Below, one piece after another: positions 1,386-17,142 of a stretch of 64,000 bases of DNA. Origin of the DNA: Planctomycetota bacterium (GTDB taxonomy: Bacteria; Planctomycetota; Planctomycetia; Planctomycetales; Planctomycetaceae); assembly GCA_022600195.1 (NCBI GenBank), contig JAHZKX010000003.1:62001-126000 (forward strand). Direction: 5' to 3'. Within the stretch, counting starts at the first letter, position 1; each line of letters begins with the position of its first letter. The notes under the pieces are model-generated. The model ran no database searches and had not been told where the DNA came from. It saw nothing but the letters and a program-made list of their open reading frames with translations. A program made the position numbers and the translations under genes.

Positions 1386-2606
1386 ATGGGACAAATCATC
1401 TATGCGATGGCTACCATGGACACCAAAGGCGACGAACTCTGCTTCGTGGCCGACTGCATTCGCCGCATCGGCCTTGACGTGGTGCTGGTTGACTTAAGCA
1501 CTCAAGGTAGCTCGAATCGTGCAGACATCACAGCTCGTACGGTCGCCCAGGCTCACCCCGCAGGGCCAGATCAGGTGTTGGGACAATCTGACCGTGGTCA
1601 AGCGGTGACAAAGATGTCGGAAGCGCTGCAACACTGGTTGTCTGCTGAGGTCAGTTCTGAAACAGTGGCGGGAGTCATCGCCCTCGGCGGAAGTGGTGGA
1701 ACGGCTATCGTCGCTCCCGCCCTGCAGGCACTTCCCATCGGACTGCCCAAACTGATTGTCTCAACCGTCGCCAGTGGAAACACGCAGCCTTATGTAGGGC
1801 ACAGCGACATCACCATGATGTATTCGGTAGTCGATGTCGCGGGCCTCAACTCAGTCTCGCGGCAAGTATTAAGTAATGCCGCCCATGCGATCACCGGCAT
1901 GGTCGCCCACGCATGTGTCATCTCGGGTGACAGACCAGCCATCGGCATGACCATGTTCGGCGTCACAACTCCCTGCGTAGACATGGTTCGCGAAACCCTG
2001 GAAACGAAAGGATTTGACCCCCTGGTCTTTCACGCAACCGGAACCGGAGGACAGGCGATGGAAAAACTCGTTTCCGATGGCCTCATTGGTGGCGTACTCG
2101 ATATTACGACCACCGAAGTGGCCGACGAAGTGGTAGGTGGTATCATGCCCGGCGGTCCACATCGTTTCGATGCCATCATCGAAAGCGGAATCCCATATAT
2201 TATGAGCCTCGGCGCACTCGACATGGTCAACTTTGGAGCCCGTCAGACGGTCCCGGAACGGTTTACCGACCGCCACTTTCTTATACACAATCCGCAGGTC
2301 ACTTTAATGCGAACAACCGTGGAAGAAAACCGGCAGATTGCAAAATGGATCGCCGAGAAGGTCAATCGGTCGACGGCGCCTGTAGAAATCCTGATCCCTG
2401 AACAGGGCGTCTCGATGCTCGATAGCGAAGGGGAAGCCTTCTATGATCCCCAAGCCGACCAGGCCCTTTTCGACACATTAGAACAAGAAGTCCAGCAAAC
2501 AGACACGCGACGCATCACGCGCCACCCTTGCCACATCAACGACTCGGTTTTTGCAAAGGCACTCGTCGCAGCATTTGAACGAGTGTGCGAAAATCGCATT
2601 CAATAG
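1386..2606 (+). CDS. Tm-1-like ATP-binding domain protein (UPF0261)
   Basis: The 406-residue length and the N-terminus (MATMDTKGDE) fit the UPF0261/Tm-1-like ATP-binding family. A glycine-rich loop GGSGGT (residues 101-106) and STVASG (126-131) are typical of its nucleotide-binding core; conserved DVAGLN (140-145) and SLGALDMVNFGA near residue 270 also fit. In plants and fungi this domain is fused to a TIM barrel of the type encoded next door; tomato Tm-1 is a viral-replication inhibitor, but the bacterial role is unknown and probably metabolic. The start has a strong GGAAGGAA site 5 bases upstream. The next gene begins 27 bases after the stop, so the two are likely co-transcribed and may act as a complex. 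Confidence 0.85.
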   Translation: MGQIIYAMATMDTKGDELCFVADCIRRIGLDVVLVDLSTQGSSNRADITARTVAQAHPAGPDQVLGQSDRGQAVTKMSEALQHWLSAEVSSETVAGVIALGGSGGTAIVAPALQALPIGLPKLIVSTVASGNTQPYVGHSDITMMYSVVDVAGLNSVSRQVLSNAAHAITGMVAHACVISGDRPAIGMTMFGVTTPCVDMVRETLETKGFDPLVFHATGTGGQAMEKLVSDGLIGGVLDITTTEVADEVVGGIMPGGPHRFDAIIESGIPYIMSLGALDMVNFGARQTVPERFTDRHFLIHNPQVTLMRTTVEENRQIAKWIAEKVNRSTAPVEILIPEQGVSMLDSEGEAFYDPQADQALFDTLEQEVQQTDTRRITRHPCHINDSVFAKALVAAFERVCENRIQ

Positions 2607-9196: not shown

Positions 9197-12100
9197 CTAT
9201 TTACCTGATTTTGACTTGCGTTTTCTCGGAGTCTCGCGGTTTTCCCAGAACAGTTCCGCGCATTCGAGTGCCTGGTTTCGGACTCCGTCGCTCAGCGACT
9301 GGTCCTCAGTAATCCGTTTCTGTAATTCGTTCAGCGATTGAACACGCTCCCGAAGTGTTGTTAACAATCCTTTTGCATAAGATTCTGATCGTAGTTTGTT
9401 CGTCGTTCGCCGTGCATCCCAGATCTTCACAGTCCTGTCCGAACTCGCTGAGATGAGTCGTTTCCCGTCCGGACTAAACATCACTCTGACGATCTTGTCT
9501 GTATGTCCTTCCAGCGTAAGTGATTCCTGACCTGTATTTGCATCCCAGATTTTCACCTTTTGATCCATTCCTGCAGAAGCCAGACGCTTCCCATCGGGGC
9601 TGAATGTAACATCTATGACATTCCCTGCATGACCTATCATCGTGCGAATTTTTTCTCCTGAAAGAGAGTCCCATAAACTGACCTTACCATTTGTCATCCC
9701 GGTAACCAGTTGAGTCCCGTCCGGGCTGAACATGACACTTTTTAAATTGTGATTCGTTTTCAGGATTGTGAGTACCTCCGAAACATCGAGGAAGTTATAG
9801 ACCTTCAAAGTCTTTATCCCCTCTATCAAGGCCAACCGCTTTCCATCGCGGCTGAAAGCAACACCTCTGGCTAATCCTTTGTACCTTTTAAGAGTGTGAA
9901 TCACCTGACGGGTGGCAAGGTCCCAGATTTTTGCTGACCCATCACTACTTGTTGAGACGAGTCGAGAACCATCCGGGCTGATCAATAAGGCAATAATTCT
10001 GGCAGTATGCGCTTTCAGAGAAAATATCTCTTGCCCTGTGACCGTGTCCCATAGTTTCACTGTCCCGTCTTCATCACCTGATACTATTTGTGTTCCGTCT
10101 GCGTTAAATGCCACACTTTTAATCCAACCGGTATGTCCAGTCAGAGTACGTATTACCTGACCTGAGAACGAGTCCCATAGCTTTACAGTCTTATCCGCAC
10201 TAACCGAAACCAGTCGCGTTCCGTCTGCATTAAAAGCCACATCATCAACCGATCCCTTATGCTTATTGAGCGTGAGATTTTTCTGAGATGCAGCAATACT
10301 CCATAACTTGACCGAGCCATCTAAACTTGCCGAAACCAGCCGTGTACCATCCGGGCTGAACGAAGCACTCAGGATGGGATAAGTATGACCCTTGTAACGA
10401 TTGACCTCTTCCCCTGTTGCGACGTCCCACAACTTCAATAGTCGGTCCGCGCCCGCAGAAACCAATTGCCTGCTATCCAGACTGAATGCGACACTATTGA
10501 CCAACGAAGCATGTCCTTGAATTGTGAATCTCTCCTTGCCCGTAGCCATCTCCCAAAGTTTGATCGTACCATCACCACAGCCCGTTACCAGATGTTCGCC
10601 ATGCGGGCTAAACGAAACATCTTGAACCAATGAAGAGTATCCTTTGAGAGTATTGAGTACTTTCCCTGTCTCAATTTCCCACACCTTCACCGTTCGGCCC
10701 CGACCGGTTGAAGCCAGCCGTTTTCCATCAGGGTGGAATGAAAGACCAAAGACATTACTGTTTTTTCCTTGATGCCCTTTAAACGTCAGTCTCTCCTTGC
10801 CGGTGGCGGCATCCCATACTTTCACCGTTTTATCATCGCTGGCCGAGGCCAACACTTTTCCGTCTGGACCGAATGAAACGTCATGCACAATTTGAGAATG
10901 CCCTTGGAATGAAATCTGCTCTTTTCCTGTGACTACGTCCCAGACCTTCAGCATACCATTAGTGTCTGCTGAGACCAGACGGCTACCGTCTGGACTGAAC
11001 GATAAACATCTAACACCACCAGTGTGTCCTTGAAATGTGAATATCATCTGATTCGTTGCAATGTCCCACACTTTAACCGTTTTATCACCACTGGCCGAGG
11101 CAATTTTTGTTCCATCCGGACTGAGTGCAATGTCGAATATTGTCCTTAAGTGTGCATTGAAAGACAATAAGTTCTCTGCTTTGGTACGGTCCCAGTAATC
11201 CCACTCAAAGCCTCGCAATTCTTTACGCTTCCGATATCGTGCTAGAATTTGTTGAAGCTTGGCAATGTCTGCATCCTGCCATGCTTTTTGCAGCAGCAGC
11301 ATATCTGAGTAATACGCATTCCGTTCAGCAACCTTGTAATTTCGGAGTGCGCTTTCTGCCTCTTGCTTTGCCCTTGCCTCAGCAGCCATCGCTTTCTGTT
11401 CATTTTCCTGAGCAACCTTCTGTGCAATAACGGCTTTCTCTCTAGCAGCGATGGCAACTAGACGTTGCGCTTGCGCTTCCTCTGCACTTCGCTGTGCCTG
11501 TTCTCGCTGGATCGCTTCTTCTTTTTGGGCGGCAAGCGCTTTATCTTGTGCAGCAAGTGCTTTATCCCGTTCGGAATTAATCCACACTGTAGCCACACTG
11601 GCAACAATCGCAACGACCAGACTCGCGCCAAAACTCACACGCTTCAATCGACGAATCTGCTGTTGTCGCGCGTCGCGCTTGACAATCTCTGCCTGAATGG
11701 AATTCCGTAACTTTGAGTGATCCTCATCTGAACCGTCTAATAATGATAACCCCAGATCCAGGTCGCCTCGATCCAGGGCTGTTTTTGCATAGTCGTATTT
11801 GGTTGACTTCAATCCCTCAATCGCACGCACATTCTCCGGCCACTCTTCCAGCGCTGTTTCGAAACCAAAACGCGCACGACTGAATTCATCATACTCGCCG
11901 GAATTTCGTGCGGCTTCAAGTCGTTCTGCTGCTCGCCCGGCTAGCTCGATACTCTCTTCATGAGAAAGATATCCACGGATTGCCTGTTGGAACTCCGATA
12001 CACTTTGATAACGGTCCACAGGATCAGTGGCCATCGCTTTCCGCGCGATGTTCAGCAGCTCGCCCGATTTCTCGGTTGCAGTAATCACATTCTGAGACAC

Positions 12101-13114
12101 AGCCACCAGACAGGCCGTAACTTTCTCACGCTGAGTCTCAGGGGGCGCATCAAGTGTATGCGGAGGTTTGCCCGTAATTATCTCAAACAATATCCCCCCC
12201 AGAAGATACACATCGCTGCATCGGTCAACCTGCTCAACCCCATTCAGCATCTCCGGTGCCATGTAATAAGGCGTTCCACCCGGTGCTGGCGTGTGATACA
12301 CTTCGCGCCGCGGGTGATCATGAGTCGGCATCGCCAGACCCCAGTCCATCACCAGAACTTCTCCAAACGATCCCAGCATGATATTGGCTGGTTTTAAGTC
12401 ACGGTGAATGATGCAACGTGCATGCGCAAAGGCAACCGCATCCGCCACACGCAATAAAATGTCCAGATTCTCCGAGAGACTGTTCGTGCCAATCCGATCT
12501 TTCCATTCAACACCTTCGACCTGCTTCATTGCATAGAATAAGGCATCGTCTTCCTGCTTACCCAGATCATAGATCGGTACGATATTCGGATGATCCAGGC
12601 CGCCAGTAATAATCGCTTCCGAGGTAAAGGCACGTTGACTGCCATCCATCTGCTCGATTTTTGATTTGAGTACCTTGATCGCAACCGGACGATCCATCGA
12701 CTGTTGACGACCGGCATATACGGCCCCCATCCCACCTTCGCCCAACAGTTGATCAACCTCATAGCCGACACCAATTACCATGTCGTCATCGGAGTCGGTA
12801 CGCGCTGGATCTGCGCGCGTGGCATCAAGATCATCGCTCAATCTGACGGTCTTGTCTAAACCGTCAGACTCGGGTGAAGGCATTTTGATGGTCTGACCCG
12901 GATCAACTTCATCGCCTAGTGCAGACTTCCAGTCTTCCAGCATCGTCGCCGCCAGATCGATGTCCGCTGGCAACGTCGCATCGGGAGTCGGAACAGATGA
13001 CGCACCCTTACTCAGTGGGACTGTCCGATTGAGGTCTTCAACCTCTGGTTTTTCACTATTGGCGTCATCGCCGTGCGAGTCATCACCGTGCGAGCCATTC
13101 GAAGATGGGGGCAT
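9197..13114 (-). CDS. Membrane-anchored Ser/Thr protein kinase with 14 WD40 repeats
   Basis: A 1305-residue Hanks-type kinase. The N-terminal ~117 residues are acidic and low-complexity. The kinase domain covers about 118-395: GEGGMG loop at 125-130, VAIK lysine 147, HRDLKPAN with D239, DWG (for DFG) at 257-259, and APE at 286-288. A linker precedes one transmembrane helix at about 493-512, then an Ala/Glu/Lys-rich coiled coil to ~597. From about 650 to 1250 I count 14 WD40 repeats (variants of KGHT...SFSPDG...VKLWD), enough for two seven-bladed propellers, expected on the outside. It is paralogous to the gene upstream at 13252-17142. The substrate is unknown; no sigma factor is adjacent, unlike many planctomycete kinases. 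Confidence 0.95.
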   Translation of the reverse strand: MPPSSNGSHGDDSHGDDANSEKPEVEDLNRTVPLSKGASSVPTPDATLPADIDLAATMLEDWKSALGDEVDPGQTIKMPSPESDGLDKTVRLSDDLDATRADPARTDSDDDMVIGVGYEVDQLLGEGGMGAVYAGRQQSMDRPVAIKVLKSKIEQMDGSQRAFTSEAIITGGLDHPNIVPIYDLGKQEDDALFYAMKQVEGVEWKDRIGTNSLSENLDILLRVADAVAFAHARCIIHRDLKPANIMLGSFGEVLVMDWGLAMPTHDHPRREVYHTPAPGGTPYYMAPEMLNGVEQVDRCSDVYLLGGILFEIITGKPPHTLDAPPETQREKVTACLVAVSQNVITATEKSGELLNIARKAMATDPVDRYQSVSEFQQAIRGYLSHEESIELAGRAAERLEAARNSGEYDEFSRARFGFETALEEWPENVRAIEGLKSTKYDYAKTALDRGDLDLGLSLLDGSDEDHSKLRNSIQAEIVKRDARQQQIRRLKRVSFGASLVVAIVASVATVWINSERDKALAAQDKALAAQKEEAIQREQAQRSAEEAQAQRLVAIAAREKAVIAQKVAQENEQKAMAAEARAKQEAESALRNYKVAERNAYYSDMLLLQKAWQDADIAKLQQILARYRKRKELRGFEWDYWDRTKAENLLSFNAHLRTIFDIALSPDGTKIASASGDKTVKVWDIATNQMIFTFQGHTGGVRCLSFSPDGSRLVSADTNGMLKVWDVVTGKEQISFQGHSQIVHDVSFGPDGKVLASASDDKTVKVWDAATGKERLTFKGHQGKNSNVFGLSFHPDGKRLASTGRGRTVKVWEIETGKVLNTLKGYSSLVQDVSFSPHGEHLVTGCGDGTIKLWEMATGKERFTIQGHASLVNSVAFSLDSRQLVSAGADRLLKLWDVATGEEVNRYKGHTYPILSASFSPDGTRLVSASLDGSVKLWSIAASQKNLTLNKHKGSVDDVAFNADGTRLVSVSADKTVKLWDSFSGQVIRTLTGHTGWIKSVAFNADGTQIVSGDEDGTVKLWDTVTGQEIFSLKAHTARIIALLISPDGSRLVSTSSDGSAKIWDLATRQVIHTLKRYKGLARGVAFSRDGKRLALIEGIKTLKVYNFLDVSEVLTILKTNHNLKSVMFSPDGTQLVTGMTNGKVSLWDSLSGEKIRTMIGHAGNVIDVTFSPDGKRLASAGMDQKVKIWDANTGQESLTLEGHTDKIVRVMFSPDGKRLISASSDRTVKIWDARRTTNKLRSESYAKGLLTTLRERVQSLNELQKRITEDQSLSDGVRNQALECAELFWENRETPRKRKSKSGK

Positions 13115-13173
13115 TGTTATTTTCTCAGGGTTGATAATAGGAATAATTTCGTTGAAAGGCGGGTCTGTTTATT

Positions 13174-13204
13174 ACATTAGAAGCAGGTAACAGACTAATT
13201 GCAA
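13174..13204 (-). promoter_or_regulatory. Candidate promoter of the first kinase gene, shared with its paralog
   Basis: On the minus strand TTGCAA (13199-13204) and TAATGT (13174-13179) are separated by 19 bases. The same layout, with TTGCTT and TAATGT at the same 19-base spacing inside a larger conserved block (TTAGTCT and GACC boxes), precedes the paralog at 17218-17248. Coding sequence aside, this is the best conserved part of the two upstream regions. The -10-like box ends about 60 bases before the start codon. Calling it a sigma-70-type promoter is an inference; a regulator site is equally possible. Confidence 0.35.
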
Positions 13205-13251
13205 ACAAGACAATTACTGCGAATCACTATTTCTTCATTGAGAAATTGCTT

Positions 13252-16041
13252 TCATTGACCTGGTTTCGCTGCTGGAATTGGTTTGCCTGCTGATTTTGAT
13301 TTACTCCGAATCGGTGCCACACGGTTTTTCCAGAACAGTTCTGCCCACTCGAGCGCCAGATTTCTCACAGGGTCGCTGAGTGTCTTGTCCTCAGTAATCC
13401 GCTGCTGCAATTCTTCCAGCGATTCCACACGCTCTCGAAGTGTCGTTAACATTCCTCTCGCATAAGACTCTGCTCGTAATTTGTCTGTCCAGGGCCGTGT
13501 GTCCCACACTTTCACCGTATTGTCTGGACTCGCCGAGACCAGTCGTTTACCGTCCGGACTGAAAATCAATCTGACGATCGTATCAGTATGTCCCTTTAGC
13601 GTCAGCGCCTCCTGACCTGTAGTTGCATCCCAGACTTTCACCATTGAATCTTGTCCTGCAGAAGCCAGGCGTCTCCCATCAGGACTGAATGCCACATCAC
13701 GGACCACCCCTGCGTGACCTTTCATCGTGAGAATTTCTTTCCCCGTAGTAGAATCCCATAATTTCAGTATCCCGGCCGCCATCCCGGAAGCGAACTGCGT
13801 TCCATCCGGGCTGAATGCCAGGCTATTCAACTGGGTACCTTTTGGTAACTTGATTGTGTGCATTTCCGTACCATTGATGACATCCCACACCTTTATGGTC
13901 CCAGCCTTAATAGCTAAGGCCAAGCGCGTACCATCAGGGCTGAATGTGATATCTGAAACTAGCTGGGTATGCCTTTTGAAAGTATGTATCAACTGACCTG
14001 TGTCAATATCCCATATTTTTGTTAACCCATCCTTTCCAGTCGAAGCCAGTTGGGTCCCATCCGGGCTGATTAATAATCGAATGAGTTCTCCCTTATGTGC
14101 TGCAAAAGACAATATCTCTTTCCCCGCGACAGTATCCCAGATCTTCACTGTCCCACTCTTATCACCTGACGCTAATCGTGTTCCCTCCGCATTCAATGAC
14201 ACACTGAGAACCGAATTGGAATGCCCATTCAGAGTGCGTGTTTCCTGACCTGTGCGTGGGTCCCATAACTTTATTGTCCTATCCCGACTTGCCGAAGCCA
14301 GGTGAGTACCATCCGCGCTAAGAGTAATATCGGTAACAAAATTTTTGTGTTTGTTTAGTGTCAGGGACTCTTGCTTCCCAGCCCTACTCCATAACTTCAC
14401 CACGCGGGCAACATCCGCCGAGACTAACCGTGTTCCATCTGGACTGAACGCAACACTCGTAAGAGAATGCGTGTGACCTTTAAGACGAAGAACTTCTTCC
14501 CCTGAAACGATGTCCCACAACCTCAATAATCGGTCCCAACCCGCAGAAACCAGTTGCCTGCCATCAGGACTGAACGCCACACTATTAACCCTTCGTGAGC
14601 CCACTTTGATCGTGAGCCCCGCTTTTCCTGTGTTGGTATCCCATAGCTTGATGTTAGCATCCCAACCTGCTGAAGCCAGTTGACGACCATCCGGGCTGAA
14701 GGATATACAGCTCACAGTATCTGAGTGCCCTTTGAAAGTGAATAATACCTTTCCTGTGACTGTATCCCAGAGCTTTACCGTATTATCCCGACCAGATGAA
14801 GCCAGCCATTTCCCTTGCGGGTGGAATGCAAGACCTAAGACTTGATTGGTATGTCCTTTGAAGGTGAGTTTCTCTTTACCTGTGATTGAATCCCACAGTT
14901 TGACCGTTCTATCTTTGCCTGCCGAGGCCAACCATTTTCCGTCCGGACTAAACTTAACATTGTACACATCGTTAATGTGTCTTTTGTATGAGCCTGACTC
15001 TTTCCCGTTAACTGCGTCCCATACCTTTACTAATCCATCACTACTTGCTGTAGCCAACCGGCTGGCGTCAGGACTAAAAGCGACACTGTTAACAGAGGCA
15101 GTGTGCCCTTTAAGAGTGAATATCAACTTTTCAGCGGCAATATCCCATACTTGCACTGTTTTATCCTGACTCGCCGAGGCCATCCTGGTCCCATCCGGGC
15201 TGAATGTAATGTCGTAGATTGAATCTGAATGCTTCCTGCGACTAAACAAACCATCACTGGCCATCCGGTTCCAATAATCCCACTCGAAGCCCCGCAGGTC
15301 TTGACGTCTTCGATAACGGTTCAGGATCACTTGAAGGTTGGCAATGTCTGAATCCTGCCATGCTTTTTGCAGCAATAGCATGTCCGAGTAATAAGCATTC
15401 CGTTCGGCAACCTTGAAATTTCGGAGCGCGTTCTCCGCCTCTTGCTTCGCTCTTGACTCAGCAACTATCGCCTTCTGTTCATTTTCCTGAGCAATCTTCT
15501 GTGCAGCAACGGCTTTCTCTCTGGCAGCGACGGCAACCAGACGTTGCTCTTGGGCTTCCTGTTCGCTACGCTGTGCCTGTTCTCGCTGTATCGCTTCTTC
15601 TTTCTGCGCAGCAAGTGCCTTATCCCGTTCGGAATTGATCCACACTGTAGCCACACTGGCAACAATCGCAACGACCAGACTCGCGCCAAAACTCACGCGC
15701 TTCAATCGACGAATCTGCTGTTGTCGCGCATCGCGCTTGACAATCTCTGCCTGAATGGAAGTCCGTAACTTTGAGTGATCCTCATCTGAACCGTCCAATA
15801 ATGATAACCCCAGATCCAGGTCGCCTTGATCCAGGGCTGTTTTTGCATAGTCGTATTTGGTTGCCTTCAATCCCTCAATCGCACGCATATTCTCCGGCCA
15901 CTCTTCCAGAGCGGTTTCGAAACCAAAACGCGCACGGCTGAATTCGTCATACTCGCCAGACTTCCGGGCGTCATCCAATCGTTCTGCTGCTCGCCCGGCT
16001 AGCTCGATACTCTCTTCATGAGAAAGATATCCACGGATTGC
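13252..16041 (-). pseudogene. Severed 3' part of the second kinase gene: linker, membrane helix, coiled coil and 14 WD40 repeats
   Basis: This is the continuation, in the same frame, of the kinase gene starting at 17142, beyond an in-frame TAG at 16042-16044. The codons directly after TAG (AIRGYLSHEES) match the first kinase exactly, so the two parts form one 1297-codon gene broken by one base change. The longest ATG-started frame is 908 residues from 15978, but no Shine-Dalgarno site precedes that ATG, so independent expression is doubtful. Contents in order: end of the kinase/linker, one transmembrane helix, a coiled coil lacking one seven-residue DKALAAQ unit found in the paralog, and 14 WD40 repeats. 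The rest has no further stop or frameshift, implying a recent mutation, readthrough or a sequencing error. Confidence 0.75.
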
Positions 16042-17142
16042 CTATTGGAATTCCGGAACACTCTGATAACGGCCCGCAGGATCAGAGGCCATCGCTTTCT
16101 GTGCAATGTCCAAAAGTTCGCCCGATTTCTCTGTCTCAGCAATCACGTTCTGAGATACCGCCGCCAGACACGCCACAACTTGCTCCCGCTGTGTCTCAGG
16201 GGGCGCATCAAGCGTATGCGGAGGTTTGCCCGTGATCATCTCAAACAATATTCCACCCAGAAGATACACATCACTGCGCCGGTCGACCTGCTCAACTCCA
16301 TTCAGCATTTCCGGTGCCATGTAATAAGGCGTACCACCCGGTGCCGGCGTATGGTAGACTTCGCGCCGCGGGTGGTCCTGCGTCGGCATCGCCAGACCCC
16401 AGTCCATCACCAGAACTTCTCCAAACGAACCCAGCATAATGTTGGCCGGTTTCAGATCACGATGGATAATGCAGCGTGCATGCGCAAATGCCACCGCATC
16501 CGCCACACGTAACAGGATATCCAGATTCTCAGACACACTGTTCGTGCCAATCCGATCCTTCCATTCCACGCCCTCTACCTGCTTCATTGCATAAAACAGC
16601 GCTTCGTCTTCCTGCATACCCAAATCATAAATCGGGACGATATTCGGATGATCCAGGCCACCTGTAATAATCGCTTCCGAAGTAAAAGCCCGTTGACTAC
16701 CATTGATCTGCTCTAATTTGGATTTGAGCACCTTGATCGCCACCGGCCGATCCATCGACTGTTGACGACCAGCATACACGGCACCCATACCACCTTCGCC
16801 CAACAGTTGATCAACCTCATAGCCAACACCAAGCACGAAATCATCATCGGAGGCTATACCCGATGGAACCTGCTGAGTCGCATCAAGATCATCGCTCAAC
16901 CTGACGGTCTTGTCTAAACCGTCAGACTCGGGTGAAGGCATTTTGATGGTCTGACCCGGTTCAACATCATCGCCTAGTGCAGACTTCCATTCTTCCATCA
17001 TCGTCGCCGCCAGATCGATGTCTAGTGGCAACGTCGCATCGGGAGTCGGAACAGATGACGCACTATTATCCTGTGATACAGTACTGTTGAGTTCTTCATC
17101 ATTTGGATTGTCACTGTCCGGTTCCGTAGTTGATGGAGGCAT
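16042..17142 (-). CDS. Ser/Thr protein kinase, truncated after the catalytic domain by TAG
   Basis: A 366-residue product with a complete Hanks-type kinase domain: GEGGMG at 115-120, VAIK lysine 137, HRDLKPAN with D229, DWG at 247-249, and APE about 276-278, ending just after the RYQSVPEFQ segment of the last kinase helix. The acidic N-terminal ~105 residues resemble those of the first kinase. The paralog has CAG (Gln) where this gene has TAG, so the product loses the membrane helix and the WD40 propellers and would be a soluble kinase. The start at 17142 has no clear ribosome-binding site but matches the paralog's MPPS start. A C45 hydrolase gene lies 196 bases upstream on the same strand. 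Confidence 0.8.
   Translation of the reverse strand: MPPSTTEPDSDNPNDEELNSTVSQDNSASSVPTPDATLPLDIDLAATMMEEWKSALGDDVEPGQTIKMPSPESDGLDKTVRLSDDLDATQQVPSGIASDDDFVLGVGYEVDQLLGEGGMGAVYAGRQQSMDRPVAIKVLKSKLEQINGSQRAFTSEAIITGGLDHPNIVPIYDLGMQEDEALFYAMKQVEGVEWKDRIGTNSVSENLDILLRVADAVAFAHARCIIHRDLKPANIMLGSFGEVLVMDWGLAMPTQDHPRREVYHTPAPGGTPYYMAPEMLNGVEQVDRRSDVYLLGGILFEMITGKPPHTLDAPPETQREQVVACLAAVSQNVIAETEKSGELLDIAQKAMASDPAGRYQSVPEFQ

Follow-up and report, generated by a model that had tools for sequence, protein, structure and literature searches.

An established architecture of the Planctomycetota is the transmembrane Ser/Thr kinase with a C-terminal WD40 array; predictions place the kinase of such proteins in the cytoplasm and the array mostly in the periplasm (PMC11032199). 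The association of WD40 repeats with kinases has also been described in PMC5587647. Tandem duplication of Ser/Thr kinases has been reported for other bacteria.

In the stretch of 64,000 nucleotides analysed here (referred to as the window), which comes from a draft Gimesia genome of 6.58 Mb in 84 contigs, two genes of this kind, A and B, lie in tandem on the minus strand. Both resemble the Planctomycetota kinase-WD40 proteins in having a predicted cytoplasmic kinase, one putative membrane helix and C-terminal WD40 repeats, the sole departure being a stop codon within gene B. Among the genomes searched, only three, all of Gimesia, contain members of the subfamily that they form (at about 73% identity or above). 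Like recent bacterial nonsense pseudogenes, gene B combines a transition to TAG with an intact downstream frame and a second, unbroken copy of the gene in the genome. Unlike in typical nonsense pseudogenes, that intact copy is its adjacent conversion donor, in a recombining tandem pair of kinase-WD40 genes. We consider it probable that the stop arose recently, and specifically in this lineage, by a nonsense mutation in one copy of a redundant tandem pair, with gene A as the buffer.

A single premature TAG in gene B

Gene B runs on the minus strand from 17142 to 13252 and, if uninterrupted, would be 1296 amino acids long. Its codon 367 (16044-16042) is TAG, in the context ttc caa TAG gca atc cgt, and closes a frame of 366 amino acids (16042-17142). 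The open part before the stop (16045-17142) consists of an N-terminal tail and the Ser/Thr kinase domain (PF00069, residues 108-359, 140.5 bits), the catalytic motifs of which are all present and all precede the TAG. After the TAG, the frame continues for another 929 codons and ends at 13252 (13252-16041), and no second stop or frameshift is found in these 929 codons. They encode, in order, a helical linker, a putative membrane helix, a coiled coil and the WD40 propeller repeats. The putative single membrane helix, VSFGASLVVAIVASVATVWI (15637-15696, minus strand), was read from the sequence by eye as an obvious 20-residue hydrophobic stretch between kinase and WD40, and is absent from the short product. 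All 14 WD40 stretches of gene B (PF00400) lie beyond the stop. The tandem paralog A (9197-13114, minus strand) is intact, with 1305 amino acids, a kinase and 12 such stretches.

The codon aligned with the stop is CAG in paralog A (11984-11986), and CAA-TAG in gene B thus stands against CAA-CAG in A. It is also CAG in the syntenic ortholog of another Gimesia genome, G010, a fragmented MAG that provided the only syntenic ortholog found, and GAG in a homolog from G014. As the homologous frames of A, G010 and G014 are open, the TAG is premature relative to intact homologs. Gene B, tail included, aligns end to end with paralog A (72.7% amino acid identity over the gene) and with the G010 ortholog (74.7%), and the open frame beyond the TAG is therefore not due to chance. 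The initial annotation, made from the window alone, had described an in-frame TAG where the tandem paralog reads CAACAG and a frame intact for more than 900 codons past it; both statements are confirmed, and the comparison of the aligned codon in relatives now adds CAG in G010 and a GAG codon in G014. The window is identical to the genome record across its first 20 kb, TAG site included. Viral contigs were also scanned for the TAG site, with no match. Another in-frame TAG of the window (2604-2606) was considered and set aside as an ordinary gene end, followed by a different gene. A plus-strand frame opposite the kinase (16018-16512) was taken to be a mechanical one.

The stop interrupts the predicted last helix of the kinase fold

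The stop had been placed right after the catalytic domain. This is not where it falls in an AlphaFold2 model of B residues 101-470, computed from a 52-sequence alignment with the TAG read as Gln (mean pLDDT 91.8). There, the stop corresponds to model residue 267, within one continuous 34-residue helix (model residues 262-295). This predicted helix, alphaI and its continuation, spans B residues 362-395 (15958-16059, minus strand), with the stop at its sixth residue. Solved kinases superpose on the model as far as residues 272-279, most of them to at least 273 (B residues 373-379), and their superpositions thus end 6-12 residues beyond the stop. The best structural match is PknB of Mycobacterium tuberculosis (PDB 1o6y, 5u94; Z 31.8, rmsd 1.9, 35% identity over 251 residues), which has its kinase fold in common with gene B and superposes up to its own residues 277-281, beyond the point where gene B is cut. 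PknB carries PASTA repeats in place of the WD40 repeats of gene B. Judging from the model, the kinase fold ends with alphaI, and the stop cuts this helix after five residues. A conserved continuation, FQxAxxxYxxHxESIxLxxRA, lies just past the stop in the family alignment, and the truncation removes this conserved family sequence together with most of alphaI.

Could the truncation nevertheless be functional, B having become a soluble cytoplasmic kinase that acts, for example, on or with A? All catalytic motifs precede the stop, no part of gene B evolves more slowly than its kinase half (dN 0.014 against the G010 ortholog), and Ser/Thr kinases that consist of the kinase alone are common among Planctomycetota, accounting for 242 of the 525 in Ca. 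Uabimicrobium (PMC11032199). We regard this as quite improbable, however, as the stop comes at residue 6 of the 34-residue alphaI and 6-12 residues short of the ends of solved kinase domains, the truncation is absent from all relatives found in the genomes searched, and decay of the gene B tail has not yet begun. As to the slow rate of the kinase, it is common to the full-length relatives and is therefore older than the stop. The initial annotation, which described a soluble kinase detached from its membrane helix, is correct for the parts lost and the catalytic motifs kept, but since most of alphaI and the conserved helical region are removed, a stable and active kinase is doubtful. We infer that "soluble kinase domain" is probably too strong a term for the product, AlphaFold2 providing no measure of stability.

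Suppression, readthrough and restart

Rfam identifies 62 tRNAs in the assembly and ARAGORN assigned an anticodon to 60 of them. None of these 60 is CTA, the anticodon of an amber suppressor, and the Rfam alignments give UGA and probably UCG for the other two. Productive readthrough of the TAG is unlikely. Were it to occur at a useful level, a short and a long kinase would both be made, which would suit the intact tail of gene B and the purifying character of past selection on it. The base directly following the TAG is G, and in E. coli readthrough is favoured where the sequence after a stop is high in G and low in T (PMC11126739). But TAG readthrough in E. coli reporters averaged less than 1% at each of the temperatures tested (PMC11126739), the assembly yielded no tRNA with a CTA anticodon, TAG is a normal stop here, terminating 10 of the 44 long frames in the window, and the stop is not conserved, paralog A and the G010 ortholog having plain CAG. 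The chance that both kinases are made in this way is very slight.

Genome-wide recoding of TAG was also considered and rejected, as the two in-frame TAGs found in this genome replace different residues (Gln in gene B, Trp in a sulfatase) and TAG is a common terminator. Rejected as well was a restart that would yield the tail as a separate protein: the nearest in-frame start codons past the TAG are a TTG (15978) and an ATG (15888), and inspection by eye showed no convincing ribosome-binding site at either. Two dense tRNA arrays were noted during this survey, 11 tRNAs at C34:21259-22447 and 5 at C36:2509-3073, many of them low-scoring and with anticodons duplicated elsewhere; a mobile element or phage may be their carrier.

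Age of the stop and selection on gene B

In the tail of gene B, 4.3% of random substitutions would create a stop. With zero lesions observed, neutral divergence since the stop is at most about 0.025 (95%), a bound that falls to about 0.012 if indels are assumed to occur at 5% of the substitution rate. For scale, dS between B and the G010 ortholog is 0.21 in the kinase. An ancient loss is excluded by the intact tail and the lack of a second lesion in it, and the stop is thus either young or not real.

Selection was compared along the gene. The dN/dS values are 0.014/0.207 for the kinase (B against the G010 ortholog), 0.031/0.213 for the linker and membrane helix, which are converted (A against B), and 0.30/1.04 for the WD40 part (A against B). 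The ratio is well below 1 everywhere past the N-terminal tail, indicating that the entire protein was under selection until recently. When kinase changes were polarised, B had 4 nonsynonymous and 7 synonymous changes and the G010 ortholog 4 and 15, a comparison that reveals no clear relaxation of selection in the B kinase. This fits a very young stop, and equally an error.

In-frame stops elsewhere in the genome

The T might indeed be a sequencing or assembly error, or a minority allele in the consensus, with gene B intact in the organism. A single base in an otherwise pristine frame is exactly the signature that an error would leave, the assembly is a draft in 84 contigs, and the 300 nt over which A and B are 97% identical, just downstream, can confuse short-read assembly. 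Mis-assembly between the copies, however, cannot supply the T, which is found at this site in neither A nor the ortholog. A base rate was obtained from three families only, and within the source genome in-frame stops were seen in 0 of 40 kinase, 1 of 104 sulfatase and 0 of 84 PSD1 matches inspected. One stop in 228 matches does not describe an assembly riddled with errors. The one case, a sulfatase on contig C40 (L164:1184-1186), has a single TAG where 13 of 13 genus orthologs have TGG, the remaining frame being intact; as a second single-base TAG in the same assembly, it makes a small number of base errors possible. On balance, an error at the gene B site is unlikely, although its probability is appreciable and it is the strongest competitor of the preferred reading.

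Each of the two TAGs of the source genome represents a G:C to A:T change, which is the most frequent type of spontaneous mutation in bacteria. An ortholog of the sulfatase in G011 (C44, L181) has a TAG near the signal peptide where two relatives have CAG, and here a downstream start is possible. TAGs in unrelated genes show that single-base stops recur in the genus, and the case of gene B is in this respect ordinary. Single in-frame stops are also present in three weaker WD40 homologs, from G003, G025 and G041 (TAA, TGA and TAG, respectively), and a sulfatase copy of G012 is listed with one TAA.

A probable recent inactivation of B beside an intact paralog

Among the four options that the initial annotation had left side by side, recent loss is the best supported, given the single substitution, the intact tail, and CAG in both paralog and ortholog, in a comparison that covered one genome per species. 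According to this mechanism, one C-to-T transition, CAG to TAG, would recently have inactivated gene B in the lineage of this genome. Ribosomes would stop at the TAG and release a 366-amino-acid fragment lacking alphaI, the helical linker, the membrane anchor and the propeller. Such a fragment would probably be unstable and would neither sense nor localise. The loss of gene B would be tolerated since the tandem paralog A, with its intact frame, would cover the function.

The stop would leave 2.8 kb of untranslated message ahead of A. The 137-bp intergenic region between B and A (13115-13251, minus strand) resembles the region upstream of B, with about 75% identity over about 57 nt as counted by eye, and for this reason A is probably served by a duplicated 5' control region of its own, which would spare it from polarity. 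A promoter and terminator scan returned no more matches than expected from shuffled sequence.

The locus would thus present a snapshot of the first step in gene loss within a bacterial kinase family that is expanding: a single base would have broken one duplicate, beside an intact neighbour with which it recently exchanged sequence. It also calls for caution in annotation: the 366-amino-acid frame should not be taken for a new soluble kinase, nor the 908-amino-acid frame for a separate WD40 protein.

Exchange between the tandem copies

A and B share, a short way downstream of the stop, a tract of 300 nt with 97% identity (15605-15904 in B and 11547-11846 in A, minus strand). Within this tract A-B dS is 0.21, against 0.64 in the flanking kinase and 1.04 in the flanking WD40 part, and its excess of identity was reached in 0 of 5000 permutations, pointing to gene conversion after the split from the G010 ortholog. 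At the TAG site itself, A matches B for 66 nt downstream and for 7 nt on the other side.

G010 has a single kinase-WD40 copy (L109:1305-5210) at the corresponding position, flanked by relatives of the same neighbour genes. In its kinase this copy sides with B (91 against 14 informative sites, columns 80-359), in its propeller with A (173 against 58, columns 680-959), and close to the C-terminus once more with B (21 against 2 sites). Because B lies upstream of A, one unequal crossover in a tandem ancestor would yield such a 5'-B/3'-A copy, and a later exchange would account for the stretch near the end. It is also possible that the mosaic is an assembly chimera, G010 being a fragmented MAG.

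Under the preferred reading of a recent inactivation, continued exchange between A and B by gene conversion and unequal crossing-over might erase the stop, spread it or delete it with its copy. A reversible switch, in which conversion from A would toggle B between stop and full length, goes further. The conversion tract adjoins the stop, the 66 matching nucleotides lie downstream of the differing base, and the G010 ortholog is a B/A mosaic. Yet A, having no stop, can only erase the one in B, no relative has a stop at the site and no slippage tract was seen there, and we consider the probability of such a switch close to negligible. The phase-like switch of the initial annotation likewise has no support, the change being a single transition and no slippage tract. 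More elaborate still would be a recombining cassette in which one copy is silenced by a point stop and then restored, fused or deleted via its neighbour, the short B serving meanwhile as a soluble kinase or decoy partner of A; this we hold to be very unlikely.

Two further features of the relatives were observed. In the G010 kinase, two residues of helix alphaE before HRD are absent (DAV--AHARC, as opposed to DAVAFAHARC in close relatives), a gap that may impair the enzyme. The G014 homolog, at another locus (L110:10914-13169), keeps the kinase, linker, membrane helix and coil, nearly all of its WD40 repeats having been lost by an in-frame internal deletion.
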